Assembly: GCF_023715885.1 (NCBI RefSeq)
Contig: NZ_JAMBOY010000001.1
Span: 1-64,000 of the forward strand
Reading direction: 5' to 3'
From: Microbacterium hydrocarbonoxydans
GTDB lineage: Bacteria; Actinomycetota; Actinomycetes; Actinomycetales; Microbacteriaceae
Length of the DNA: 64,000 bases
How positions within the stretch are numbered: position 1 is the stretch's first letter; the number at the start of each line of letters is the position of its first letter. The notes under the pieces were generated by a model. The model was not told the DNA's origin. It made no database searches and saw only the letters and a list, made by a program, of their open reading frames with translations. The translations under genes and the position numbers were made by a program. Shown one piece after another: positions 51,306 to 54,338 of this stretch.

Positions 51306-52490
51306 CTATGAAGAGCGCTCCCCGCCCCGATGGATGACCGGCGGGCGCAAGACGAGCACCACGACGATCGACGCCATGACCGCCGCGGTGATCGCGACGG
51401 GGATCGGCAGCACCGGATCGAGCAGCACCAGCACCGCGCCGAGCGGGACGACCGTGTTCACGACGCGGTCGGCGTTGTCGCGGATCGCGACCCACCAGAT
51501 CGCGATCAGGAAGAGCGCGATCGGGATCGTCACGGTCAGGGACGCCTCGACGGTCGACAGATGACTCTCGCCCGTCAGCACGTCGAGCTCGACCTCGATG
51601 CCCGCCGAGAAGGCGGCGGCCGCAGCGAACACGAAGTAGTGGGTGTAGCCGTACCGCAGCGACCGACCGAAGGTGGTGATAGCCCGGTGGTGCGGCGGCC
51701 AGAAGTAGATCCACCACAGCGAGGCCGTCACGACGAGCGTGAGCACGGAGATCGAGATGAGCGGGACGAAGGATTCCAGCTCGCGGCTCGCATCGATGAT
51801 CGCGTTCGCGGAGGCGAGCAGGCTCTCGCCCAGAACGATCAGCGTGAACAGGCCGTAGCGTTCGGTGATGTGGTGCGGATGCCACGGAGTCTGACGCCGA
51901 TACTCCGCGAAGACCGGGATGCTGACCTCGAGAAGCGCGAACACGACGAACGCGACCAGTTGCAGCGTGCCGGACGGGATGAGCAGGAACAGCACCCAGA
52001 GCACCTGCACCGCCGCGATACCGACCGCATAGCGACGGGTCGCCCCGCGGAGATCGCCGGCTCCTCGAGAGGCGCGGAGCCACTGCGCGATCATCGCGGC
52101 GCGCATCACCACGTACCCGATCACGGGGACGGTGAAGTCGCCGTGCTCGAACGCGGCGGGCACACCGGCAGCGAGAACCAGCACCCCGCCCATCTGCACG
52201 ATCGTCGTCACGCGGTACAGCCAGTCATCGGTGTCGAAGGAGGTGGCGAACCAGGTGAAGTTCATCCACGCCCACCAGATCGCGAAGAACAGCATCGCGT
52301 ACGACGTGATGCCGTGCACGAAGTCGCCGTGGCTGAGCGCGTGATGCAGTTGCGCCGATGTGATGCTCACCGCCACGACGAAGACGAGATCGAAGAACAG
52401 CTCGAGGCTGCTCGCCGTCCGGTGCGGCTGTGCGGGGTCGCGCGGCTGCATCGGATTCAGTCGGAAGCGGTGCGTGGAGGCGGTCGTCAC
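51306..52490 (-). CDS. Low temperature requirement protein A (LtrA) family membrane protein
   Basis: 394 residues with about ten TM helices. SSLELFFDLVFVVAVSITSAQLHH is the N-terminal LtrA hallmark; WAWMNFTWFATSFDTDDWLYR, YRRQTPWHPHHITERYGLFTLIVLGESLLA and YGYTHYFVFAAAAAFSAGIE are also conserved. The function is unknown (named from a Listeria cold-growth mutant). The start GTG 52490 lies 7 nt after TATCCT (52498-52503 on the plus strand), again suggesting a leaderless message; upstream codons to 52544 lack LtrA character. Confidence 0.88.
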   Translation of the reverse strand: MTTASTHRFRLNPMQPRDPAQPHRTASSLELFFDLVFVVAVSITSAQLHHALSHGDFVHGITSYAMLFFAIWWAWMNFTWFATSFDTDDWLYRVTTIVQMGGVLVLAAGVPAAFEHGDFTVPVIGYVVMRAAMIAQWLRASRGAGDLRGATRRYAVGIAAVQVLWVLFLLIPSGTLQLVAFVVFALLEVSIPVFAEYRRQTPWHPHHITERYGLFTLIVLGESLLASANAIIDASRELESFVPLISISVLTLVVTASLWWIYFWPPHHRAITTFGRSLRYGYTHYFVFAAAAAFSAGIEVELDVLTGESHLSTVEASLTVTIPIALFLIAIWWVAIRDNADRVVNTVVPLGAVLVLLDPVLPIPVAITAAVMASIVVVLVLRPPVIHRGGERSS

Positions 52491-52590
52491 GCCGGTCAGG
52501 ATATCCCCGCCCGCGTCGGCGTTACGAGATGACTGAAAATTCATTCATCCAATCGGCGGAAATATCTTCCACTGAGGGCGACCGATCCGC

Positions 52591-52596
52591 TAGAGT
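52591..52596 (+). promoter_or_regulatory. Candidate -10 of the polysaccharide cluster
   Basis: TAGAGT with a poor -35 (TTCCAC, 18 bp upstream). The same TAGAGT in a similar context (GCTAGAGT then ATCGA) recurs at 57334 before the Wzz/Wzc-type gene. A transcript from here would have a leader of about 200 nt before ATG 52806. Confidence 0.4.
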
Positions 52597-52627
52597 GATC
52601 GAAGTCTGCAGCTCCTGCTGTACGCCT

Positions 52628-52731
52628 GCACCGTGTGGGACGGTGCGAGCACTCCCGTGATGTGGGATCACGGTTCGCGGCAGGACCCGAGGGGTCGGGT
52701 GTGCAGACGATGCTGGGGACGTGGGGTCCCC
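52628..52731 (+). ncRNA. Candidate structured 5' leader with repeated GTGGG-loop hairpins
   Basis: Three perfect hairpins share the pentaloop GTGGG but have different stems: GCACCGT/ACGGTGC (52628-52646), CCGTGAT/ATCACGG (52655-52673) and GGGGAC/GTCCCC (52715-52731). A fourth hairpin, GACCC-GAG-GGGTC (52684-52696), lies between. Stem sequence that varies while pairing is kept, with a constant loop, points to RNA structure. The region is just upstream of the sugar transferase that starts the polysaccharide operon. I do not recognise a known riboswitch. The same strand is also open in the transferase frame, so an N-terminal extension cannot be excluded. Confidence 0.5.
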
Positions 52732-52770
52732 GGTCTGGGGAACACTGGGGAAAACATGTCGCACTGGGGA
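52713..52770 (+). repeat. Four direct copies of CTGGGGA before the sugar transferase gene
   Basis: The heptamer CTGGGGA starts at 52713, 52735, 52745 and 52764, spacings of 22, 10 and 19 bp, close to multiples of one helical turn. The first copy overlaps the last GTGGG-loop hairpin. They could be binding sites for a regulator on one face of the DNA or repeated motifs in the RNA. Confidence 0.5.
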
Positions 52771-52805
52771 TATCTGCGTACATTCACGGCTCACGAGGCC
52801 TCGGC

Positions 52806-54338
52806 ATGACTTCCGTCGAGGATGCTCTGAGCATCACTCGCACGGGTTCGGTCTTCGCCCCGGTCGCGGCCCCACGGGCCATCAAGCCGGTCACGCACAC
52901 GGTGGTCACACCGCGCGTGTCCGCAACGCTGGAGCGACGCCGCCAATGGGAGCGGCGTTATCGGATGCGACTGCGAATCTCGGATGCGGGGATCATCCTC
53001 TTCGCGGTCGCGCTCACCGCAGCGATCCAGCTGATGACCGGTGCCGCGGGGGAAGAGGCCCTGCGCAACGGCATCCTGCTGGGTTCGCTCTGGTATCTGA
53101 TGCTCAGCGCTCTGCATACGCGTGATGCAGCGCTGTTCCGCGCCAGCGCCACCGAGTATCGCGGCGTCGCGCACGCCAGCGGACTGGCGTTCGGGATCAT
53201 CGCCATGGTCGCTGTCGTGCTCGGCTGGGAGTCGATGCAGCTCGTGCTGCTCGTCGGCCTCCCGTTCGGCGTGCTCACGCTGCTCGTCACCCGATGGACG
53301 TGGCGGCACTGGCTGACGGCGCAGCGTGCGCAGGGGCGATTCGCCTCGCGCACGCTCGTCGTCGGCAACCGCGACGACGTGGAGTACGTCGTCCGCACAC
53401 TCCACCCGATCGGCGCATCCGGGCATCAGGTCGTGGGCGCCACGCTGCTCGACGGCAATGCGCGGGATGTCGAGGTCGCCGGCACGCATTTCCCGGTCAT
53501 CGGCAACGTGAACACCGTGTCGACGGTGGCGGCGGAGCTGGGCGCCGACACGATCATCGTGGCGAGTCGACCCGACGGCGAGCCGGACTTCGTGAAGAAG
53601 CTCAGCTGGCAGCTCGAGGGCACCGCCGCCGAGCTCGTGCTGTCCAGCCGTCTGACCGACGTGGCGGGCCCCCGCATCTCGTTCGCCCCGGTCGAGGGTC
53701 TGCCGCTGATCCAGGTGCAGATCCCTTCCTATGAGGGTGGGCAGCACATCCTCAAGCGCGCCCTCGACATCGCCGTCGCGACGATCGCACTCATCCCGAT
53801 CGCGCTGATCACGCCGCTCCTCGCGCTGCTCGTGAAGCTCGACTCGCCGGGTCCGCTGTTCTTCTTCCAGGAGCGGGTCGGACGCGACGGCCGGACGTTC
53901 AGGATCGTCAAGTTCCGCTCGATGAAGACGGATGCCGAGCAGCAGCTCGCCGCGCTCAAGGAGCAGAACGAGGGCGCCGGCCTGCTGTTCAAGATGAAGG
54001 ACGACCCCCGCGTCACCCGGGTCGGACGTATCCTGCGCAAGCTCTCACTCGACGAGCTGCCGCAGTTCTGGAACGTCCTCGTCGGCGACATGAGCGTCGT
54101 CGGCCCACGCCCTCCGCTGCCCTCCGAGGTGACCGCGTACGACGGCACCGTGTACCGCCGCCTGTACATCAAGCCCGGCATAACGGGCCTGTGGCAGGTC
54201 TCCGGCCGCAGCGATCTCTCCTGGGATGAGAGCGTGCGCCTCGACCTGCGGTACGTCGAGAACTGGTCGGTCATGAACGATCTGCAGATCATGTGGCGCA
54301 CCGCCAAGGTCATGGTGCAGCCCAGCGGGGCATACTGA
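52806..54338 (+). CDS. Polyprenyl-phosphate sugar phosphotransferase (WcaJ/PssY-like)
   Basis: 510 residues from ATG 52806. Four to five N-terminal TM helices (residues 55-165), a CoA-binding-like Rossmann domain (TLVVGNRDDVEYVVRTLHPIG near residue 180), a further TM near residue 325, and the bacterial sugar transferase domain: KRALDIAV, FFFQERVGRDGRTFRIVKFRSM, LRKLSLDELPQFWNVLVGDMSVVGPRPP and KPGITGLWQVSGRS. It transfers a sugar phosphate to undecaprenyl phosphate to start the repeat unit. The first gene of the polysaccharide cluster. The frame is open back to 52635, so a longer protein is possible, but it would run through the leader hairpins. Confidence 0.93.
   Translation: MTSVEDALSITRTGSVFAPVAAPRAIKPVTHTVVTPRVSATLERRRQWERRYRMRLRISDAGIILFAVALTAAIQLMTGAAGEEALRNGILLGSLWYLMLSALHTRDAALFRASATEYRGVAHASGLAFGIIAMVAVVLGWESMQLVLLVGLPFGVLTLLVTRWTWRHWLTAQRAQGRFASRTLVVGNRDDVEYVVRTLHPIGASGHQVVGATLLDGNARDVEVAGTHFPVIGNVNTVSTVAAELGADTIIVASRPDGEPDFVKKLSWQLEGTAAELVLSSRLTDVAGPRISFAPVEGLPLIQVQIPSYEGGQHILKRALDIAVATIALIPIALITPLLALLVKLDSPGPLFFFQERVGRDGRTFRIVKFRSMKTDAEQQLAALKEQNEGAGLLFKMKDDPRVTRVGRILRKLSLDELPQFWNVLVGDMSVVGPRPPLPSEVTAYDGTVYRRLYIKPGITGLWQVSGRSDLSWDESVRLDLRYVENWSVMNDLQIMWRTAKVMVQPSGAY

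Follow-up and report, generated by a model that had tools for sequence, protein, structure and literature searches.

Covarying hairpins in the leader of a wcaJ-like gene of Microbacterium and a family of candidate small RNAs with complementary loops

The window, i.e., the whole stretch of 64,000 nucleotides of Microbacterium hydrocarbonoxydans that we have analyzed, contains on its + strand a gene coding for a WcaJ-like sugar transferase (52806..54338; PF02397 Bac_transf, E 4.8e-68), the first gene after a leader region that carries an unusual array of hairpins. Divergent from it, on the - strand, a gene at 51306-52544 codes for a 412-aa membrane protein that presumably resembles the LtrA family. 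All the features of the leader are on the + strand. From our reading of the sequence, a putative promoter (TTCCAC-18 nt-TAGAGT) is located at 52567..52596; its parts, CTTCC and TAGAGT/TACAGT, are found at the equivalent position in 8 close relatives, and the putative start of the wcaJ-leader transcript would be near 52603, right before the first helix, P1. This is the outer helix (GUCUGCA/UGCAGAC, 52604-52610 with 52702-52708) and closes the multi-branch leader. Inside it, helix P2 (CCUGCUG/CGGCAGG, 52614-52620 with 52678-52684) encloses two hairpins, P3 (GCACCGT-GTGGG-ACGGTGC, 52628..52646) and P4 (CCGTGAT-GTGGG-ATCACGG, 52655..52673), which have different stems and the same GUGGG loop. They are followed by hairpin P5 (CCCGA-GGGG-UCGGG, 52686..52699) and by hairpin P6 (52713..52733), the loop of which is again GUGGG in M. 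hydrocarbonoxydans (core GGGGAC-GTGGG-GTCCCC, 52715-52731). Next to P6 there are three linear copies of the heptamer CUGGGGA: site 1 at 52735..52741, site 2 at 52745..52751, in the predicted ribosome-entry position of a small open reading frame (uORF), and site 3 at 52764..52770, within the uORF itself (codons H-W-G). The uORF (52756..52809) has 17 codons, reads MSHWGYLRTFTAHEASA and a stop, and this stop overlaps the start of wcaJ as ATGA.

A preliminary description of this DNA had already placed the three GTGGG hairpins, and our search confirms them. No other hairpin with this loop and a perfect stem of at least 6 occurs in the 64 kb window, whichever strand is read; all three are within 104 nt, while a first-order Markov model predicts 0.075 per 64 kb (both strands) and the maximum reached in 200 simulations was one. 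As a reference, the + strand of the window has 47 perfect-stem (at least 6) hairpins with any loop of 5 nt. The fourth hairpin, given before as GACCC/GGGTC, reads better as CCCGA-GGGG-UCGGG, because the pairs of the latter stay paired across species (99.5% of cells, with two-sided changes in 5/5 pairs), and helices P1 and P2 are additional to the hairpins then listed.

We searched the WcaJ-like protein in 58 genomes and found the leader kept in 8 Microbacterium relatives, in which the stems differ and the loops are largely the same. MAFFT misaligned P4 in some of these relatives and, therefore, a covariance model was built from two sequences and used for re-alignment. This model gave 93 matches (E <=0.001) in 92 of 366 Microbacterium genomes. 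The re-alignment contains 93 rows (87 distinct), i.e., 92 of the 93 matches (without the one of G363) plus one weak row (L108 219-372, 23.3 bits). In this alignment, which is fitted to the model, 95.9% of the cells of the 87 distinct rows pair, compared to 22.8–41.0% when the structure is slid by 1–3 columns, and two-sided changes were found in 41/41 pairs (shuffle mean 21.0, a number reached in 0/500 shuffles): 7/7 in each of P1, P2, P3 and P4, 8/8 in P6 and the five of P5 already mentioned. P1 was paired in 92.2% of its cells and its innermost pair lacked pairing in 33 of the 77 rows with letters. As an unfitted control, a MAFFT alignment of 30 of the 93 rows folds into the same six helices, with two-sided changes in 29/39 pairs, and additionally gives a weak pairing of the first with the last linear site. 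The leader pairs include 159 G-U versus 70 A-C cells, an excess indicating that the + strand fits as the leader RNA. Along with the changing stems, UGGG is maintained in the loop of P3 in 85/93 rows, of P4 in 90/93 and of P6 in 73/93 (it is replaced in 20), and GGGG in the loop of P5 in 87/93. The folding energy of the whole leader was unremarkable by itself (z -1.51, with 13/200 shuffles equally low), and the case for the structure rests on covariation and not on folding energy. Constant loops on varying stems had been taken in the preliminary description as the mark of repeated RNA recognition elements, to be abandoned if homologous leaders lacked compensatory changes in their stems; such changes turned out to be abundant, and the strong covariation supports that interpretation. 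Helices with compensatory changes are also what defines a structured cis-regulatory RNA leader. Covariation shows that the stretch belongs to the 5' leader of the wcaJ-like mRNA, which is structured and conserved, and the GTGGG hairpins are parts of this six-helix leader RNA.

The uORF is conserved as well. Its length is 16–17 codons in 87/93 leader rows, mostly with the pattern MxHWG..LR, its stop overlaps the start of the wcaJ frame as ATGA in 89/93, and wcaJ follows it in frame in 90/93. The exceptions are L085 (where the script picked another start), L102 (where the uORF ends in CTGA), the weak row L108 and a second copy of the leader in G287. This second copy (C1:126832-126997; L114 633-798) has no wcaJ-like ORF in the stretch searched behind it (up to 1200 nt), and its uORF starts with GTG and has 113 codons. 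The preliminary description had cautioned that the region is open in the frame of the sugar transferase. This is correct for M. hydrocarbonoxydans, where the frame is open back to 52635, and does not apply to most relatives: a stop located between P1 and the start of wcaJ closes the frame in 60 of the 90 in-frame rows and it is open through the leader in the other 30. The second condition that the preliminary description had set against itself, hairpins that are simply coding sequence, thus also came out in its favor. The open rows and this genome would suit an explanation in which the hairpins encode part of a longer WcaJ, or are DNA palindromes. However, the closed frames, together with the conserved uORF and its ATGA overlap and the G-U excess on the + strand, make such an explanation scarcely credible. 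The compact, multi-branched folding of an RNA that precedes a biosynthetic gene might also suggest a metabolite-sensing riboswitch, with the G-loops in the ligand pocket and a merely coincidental resemblance to the small RNAs described below. We consider this very improbable, given that the conservation sits in exposed hairpin loops, and that the number of loops and the architecture vary between lineages and genes while the letters of the loops stay. In addition, Rfam families gave nothing beyond chance in the leader: at the gathering score only five tRNAs were found in the 64 kb window, and the families of Rfam 15, compared with 52500-52900 at E up to 10, produced two chance-level matches only.

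The likely counterpart of these loops was met in the same genome (G000). M. hydrocarbonoxydans contains at least three loci (types A, B and D) for candidate sRNAs of ca. 140 nt in which the stems vary and the loops are constantly CCCCAG or CCCCAA. In G000 the predicted RNAs correspond to C27:28138-28281 (+ strand), C11:545012-545150 (- strand) and a part of C20:551905-552070 (- strand). A search with the actinobacterial 6C RNA had given sub-threshold matches only (best 28.3 bits, with a cut-off of 47). Adjoining the best of them, in front of a gene whose product reads as a cold-shock protein, we found the type A locus, the minus strand of which folds into hairpins with the loops ACCCCAG, UCCCCAG and UCCCCAA and which is present in relatives with altered stems. 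Through type A we reached a second locus with the same plan, type B, that has upstream a promoter-like element, GGGATACCA, conserved in the close group, and a GC-rich terminator-like hairpin. A motif search of the M. hydrocarbonoxydans genome gave the third locus, type D, which is kept in 8 relatives, with changing stems and the loops UCCCCAG (in nearly every row), UCCCCAG and UCCCCA(A/C); in G000 it shows a TATGAT-like element and a terminator hairpin with UCAUCGUUUU. The CCCCA of the three loops of each type has a predicted unpaired probability of 0.94–1.00, and two further CCCCA of type B are located in stems. As 6C RNAs the Microbacterium candidates had to be discarded, given the score below the gathering threshold and loops without two runs of at least six C; at E up to 1 there was no 6C match in 10 sRNA loci, nor in 8 sources containing additional sRNAs and targets. 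Rfam up to E 1 on the sRNA and target loci gave only cspA coding similarity and chance matches.

The sRNA alignment comprises the top 57 of 109 rows (52 distinct), the 52 omitted rows being mostly opposite-strand matches of the terminator palindrome, with the L018 copy also among them. The loop heptamers in the 57 aligned rows are mainly UCCCCAG and UCCCCAA, and the 52 distinct rows have 158 G-U versus 39 A-C, indicating that the C-rich strand fits as the sRNA. Matches of the type B model were found in 210/366 Microbacterium genomes; the 148 other family genomes searched gave none (under strict filters, with which weak matches are lost), and there was no match of type B in phages. Among named genomes the core of type B was found in 52 stretches, 50 of them of Microbacterium, one of an Actinomycetales bacterium and one of a Microbacteriaceae bacterium. 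We have also searched a three-site UCCCCAR pattern, with a reversed control, in 35 Microbacterium genomes and 23 genomes of other genera. In Microbacterium there were 26 partly overlapping matches, in 13/35 genomes, versus 0 for the reversed control, a figure that includes opposite-strand leaders and coding repeats; in the other genera there were 0, versus 5 for the reversed control. One of the genomes, G017, was missed by the sRNA model and has a leader that is built differently; there the pattern finds two loci, both of which fold into three hairpins with CCCCA loops.

Leader and sRNAs probably belong together. CUGGGGA and the sRNA loop UCCCCAG are exactly complementary and, among the UGGGGA sites of the 93 leader rows, 254 out of 265 have the form CUGGGGA; as the sRNA was first met via a search for a C-rich RNA (6C), some complementarity was selected for. 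The sRNA model was positive in 91 of the 92 leader-positive genomes (the exception, G275, is 76% complete) and in 119 of 274 leader-negative ones, a co-occurrence that is inflated by the kinship of the genomes and is not a count of independent events. The duplex CUGGGGA/UCCCCAG has a predicted energy of -11.9 kcal/mol, compared to -5.5 kcal/mol for CUGGGGA with the stretch that we take to be the anti-Shine-Dalgarno of the 16S rRNA. GUGGG matches UCCCCAG in four positions only (-5.2 kcal/mol). In the isolated leader, the predicted unpaired probability is 0.97 for the P3 loop, 0.98 for P4 and 0.77 for P5, and 0.68 for site 1, 0.23 for the P6 loop, 0.38 for site 2 and 0.12 for site 3, so that the P3–P5 loops, being predicted open, may be the ones contacted first. 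In G025, G031 and, more weakly, G013 there is an extra sRNA copy beside wcaJ, ca. 350–600 nt upstream on the other strand (the distances are approximate as the gene starts are not fixed). The loops of these copies are CCCCCAA, UCCCCAA and UCCCCAA, and the leaders of the same three genomes have UUGGGGA, to which the CCCCAA loops fit, at 7/13 UGGGGA sites versus 7/265 in the other lineage, a change of loop that amounts to about one evolutionary event. Between the sRNA and the wcaJ leader of G025 (L017, ca. 1000–1145) and G031 (L020, reverse strand, ca. 3440–3290) lies an extra G-loop element (UUUGGGGA); a terminator-like hairpin, with GUUGUGCCG/CGGCACAAC and UGUUU, forms its end, and the element could be a decoy RNA or an attenuated leader.

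The same loops are found in front of other genes. In the M. hydrocarbonoxydans genome, pairs of YTGGGGA within ca. 31 nt occur 13 times, versus once in the reversed control. Three are in the wcaJ leader, three in the sRNA loci (other strand) and three in a coding repeat; the remaining ones belong to the leaders of two genes, coding for a TagD-like cytidylyltransferase (PF01467) and for a large beta-propeller protein that is secreted, and to a G-loop element in front of the rpsJ operon. The motif matches at G000 C20:238365 were rejected as a target, being a repeat inside a coding sequence. The cytidylyltransferase leader has the hairpins GCGGCU-GUGGG-AGUCGC, GGCGGA-UGGGGA-UCCGCC and GAUC-UGGGGA-GAUC, the last one directly at the AUG, and is kept with stem changes in G001, G002, G005, G021 and G022 (12 of 25 loci examined). 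For the beta-propeller protein (16 of 25 loci of its homologues examined), UGGGGA was found upstream in 7 of 11 Microbacterium homologues, besides the one of this genome, and was absent upstream of the other 4; in other genera it was found in 1/4. By raw count, TGGGGA-loop hairpins are not enriched in 104 kb of the contig (4 with a stem of at least 5, versus up to 9 for other 6-nt loops). The G-loop element upstream of the rpsJ operon (G000 C21:211066-211391, + strand; L203 1400-1725, L312) is conserved over ca. 300 nt and was found in 8 of the 58 genomes searched, its own included, with E 2.7e-32 or better. It contains GUCGAA-GGGG-UUCGAC, CUGGGGA, UUGGGGA, a terminator-like GAGGCA-UGGGGA-UGCCUC and a possible GTG-started small ORF, and could act as a decoy RNA or as a leader, either for the small ORF or for another target. 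A weak candidate for a further member of the group is a glycosyltransferase (L307 9682), just upstream of the start of which there are CUGGGGA and AUGGGGA and a short overlapping ORF (L307 9610-9700, G000 C11:73610-73700).

The mechanism that we propose, to which we give a probability of about 0.68, is that the C-loop sRNAs kiss the G-loops of the leader, pair with CUGGGGA and block the translation of the uORF and of the coupled wcaJ, and that the envelope genes with these loops form one regulon. The hairpin loops of the leader would be the docking sites kissed by the sRNA loops. These would also pair with CUGGGGA at the ribosome-entry site of the uORF, translation of the latter would be blocked and, via coupling, so would that of wcaJ, so that exopolysaccharide synthesis would be turned down when the sRNAs are made. 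The TagD-like cytidylyltransferase and some of the large secreted beta-propeller proteins, with the same loops near their start codons, would belong to the same regulon. The kissing, the pairing at ribosome-entry sites and the repression are steps that we infer from the complementarity and the position of the motifs. The least certain one is the sign of the regulation, for which repression is preferred by analogy, because the C-loop sRNAs studied elsewhere, B11 and sX13, repress.

Two other explanations involve the same loops. The preliminary description had left the choice between a loop-binding protein and a loop-loop partner, and a constant loop on varying stems equally marks the sites of a protein. 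Proteins such as CsrA/RsmE bind GGA loops and show, together with CsrB/RsmZ, how a constant loop can be repeated on different stems, with binding that is multivalent and with decoy RNAs. A protein could thus recognize UGGG or GGGG in the leader loops, with the C-loop sRNAs having other targets, and the maintenance of UGGG in P3 and P4 while the adjoining letters of the loop vary would be in its favor. The CsrA/Rsm-type leaders have GGA loops; here the loop is UGGG(G), and the partner found is an RNA with a complementary loop. However, in the linear sites the conserved motif is longer, CUGGGGA, and on both of its flanks it corresponds to the sRNA loop, the sRNAs are found in all leader-positive genomes except one, and in three genomes a copy adjoins wcaJ. 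The presence in the same genomes of an sRNA family with a complementary constant loop thus favors the loop-loop partner, and we take a protein in this role to be unlikely. It is also conceivable that regulation runs in the opposite direction, the leader (and G-loop RNAs like the one upstream of rpsJ) titrating the sRNAs as a decoy, or the binding of the sRNA opening the leader and activating wcaJ. Leaders with up to eight G-sites, more than needed to block one ribosome site, point that way, as do a conserved G-loop RNA whose terminator-like hairpin carries UGGGGA and the G025/G031 element, with its terminator-like end, between sRNA and wcaJ. Nevertheless, CUGGGGA or UGGGGA is located at or beside the starts of the wcaJ uORF, the cytidylyltransferase and the secreted protein, which suits a block of ribosome entry, and the C-loop sRNAs studied in other bacteria repress (PMC12395582; PMC3771888). 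We regard the opposite direction as unlikely.

Our best reading, by analogy, is that the Microbacterium RNAs would repress through their loops in the way of 6C/B11 and sX13. 6C/B11 (Rfam RF01066), found in mycobacteria and other actinobacteria, is an sRNA that is structured and has hairpin loops rich in C, one of which is in the terminator (PMC12395582; PMC10470900). In Mycobacterium marinum the C-rich terminator loop of B11 pairs with G-tracks near the ribosome sites of lipooligosaccharide genes and represses them (PMC12395582), and repression by B11 is likewise reported for M. abscessus (PMC10470900). The Microbacterium sRNAs resemble 6C/B11 in the predicted complementarity of their C-loops to G-sites near the starts of envelope genes. 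They differ in having three loops, mostly of four C in a U-CCCC-A-R setting, rather than two loops of six and nine C, in being encoded at no less than three sibling loci, and in targets that present the site in covarying hairpins. The sX13 RNA of Xanthomonas, an unrelated lineage, is similar in having three stems with C-rich apical loops (4C, 4C and 5C) and represses mRNAs with GGGG near the start (PMC3771888). In the targets of sX13 the position and flanks of the motif are not conserved (PMC3771888), whereas in Microbacterium the flanks hardly vary and the site lies within a leader that is folded and conserved. A parallel to the proposed kissing is RNAIII and the rot mRNA of Staphylococcus aureus, where repression comes from kissing between two loops of one RNA and two of the other, as summarized in (PMC3771888); there one sRNA meets one target, while in Microbacterium one loop code is common to several sRNAs and several leaders.

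Two elements are new: a family of sibling sRNAs whose four-C loop hardly varies, and targets displaying its complement in the covarying hairpins of a leader that is folded and has an overlapping leader peptide. In the open-access literature, to which our search was confined, no sRNA of the C-loop kind was found for Microbacterium. The G-loops of the leader and the exactly complementary loops of the sRNAs point to a switch between RNAs, not described before, that would act on cell-surface sugars in a genus that is common in soil and on plants. If the proposed mechanism is true, Microbacterium would gain a defined post-transcriptional regulon, with leaders, sRNAs and predicted base pairs open to direct test, and a control of the envelope by C-loop sRNAs, as known from mycobacteria, would also operate in another actinobacterial family, in which the targets are folded arrays of loops that match. 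A tentative extension, which we hold to be more doubtful than the mechanism itself, is a two-sided loop code in which several sibling sRNAs, each with three near-identical CCCC loops, would grip multiple loops of the leader, leaders would be folded for kissing, G-loop decoys would tune the sRNA pool and coupling would run through the leader peptide; such a code, genus-wide, would coordinate exopolysaccharide, cytidylyltransferase and surface-protein genes.

Two minor features were observed in the type A region. Downstream of type A, toward the cold-shock gene, there is one separate hairpin on the - strand (L031 1501-1561), which corresponds to the 28.3-bit match of the 6C model and has a loop of six C (GGCCCUCAUCG-CUCCCCCCGC-GGUGAGGGCC). 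Another hairpin, UUGUCCCCC-AAAU-GGGGGACAA, is located at L031 1590-1612, and both lie in G000 C11, near 544873. The DNA of this region is conserved in close relatives; the hairpins could belong to the cspA leader or form an RNA of their own.
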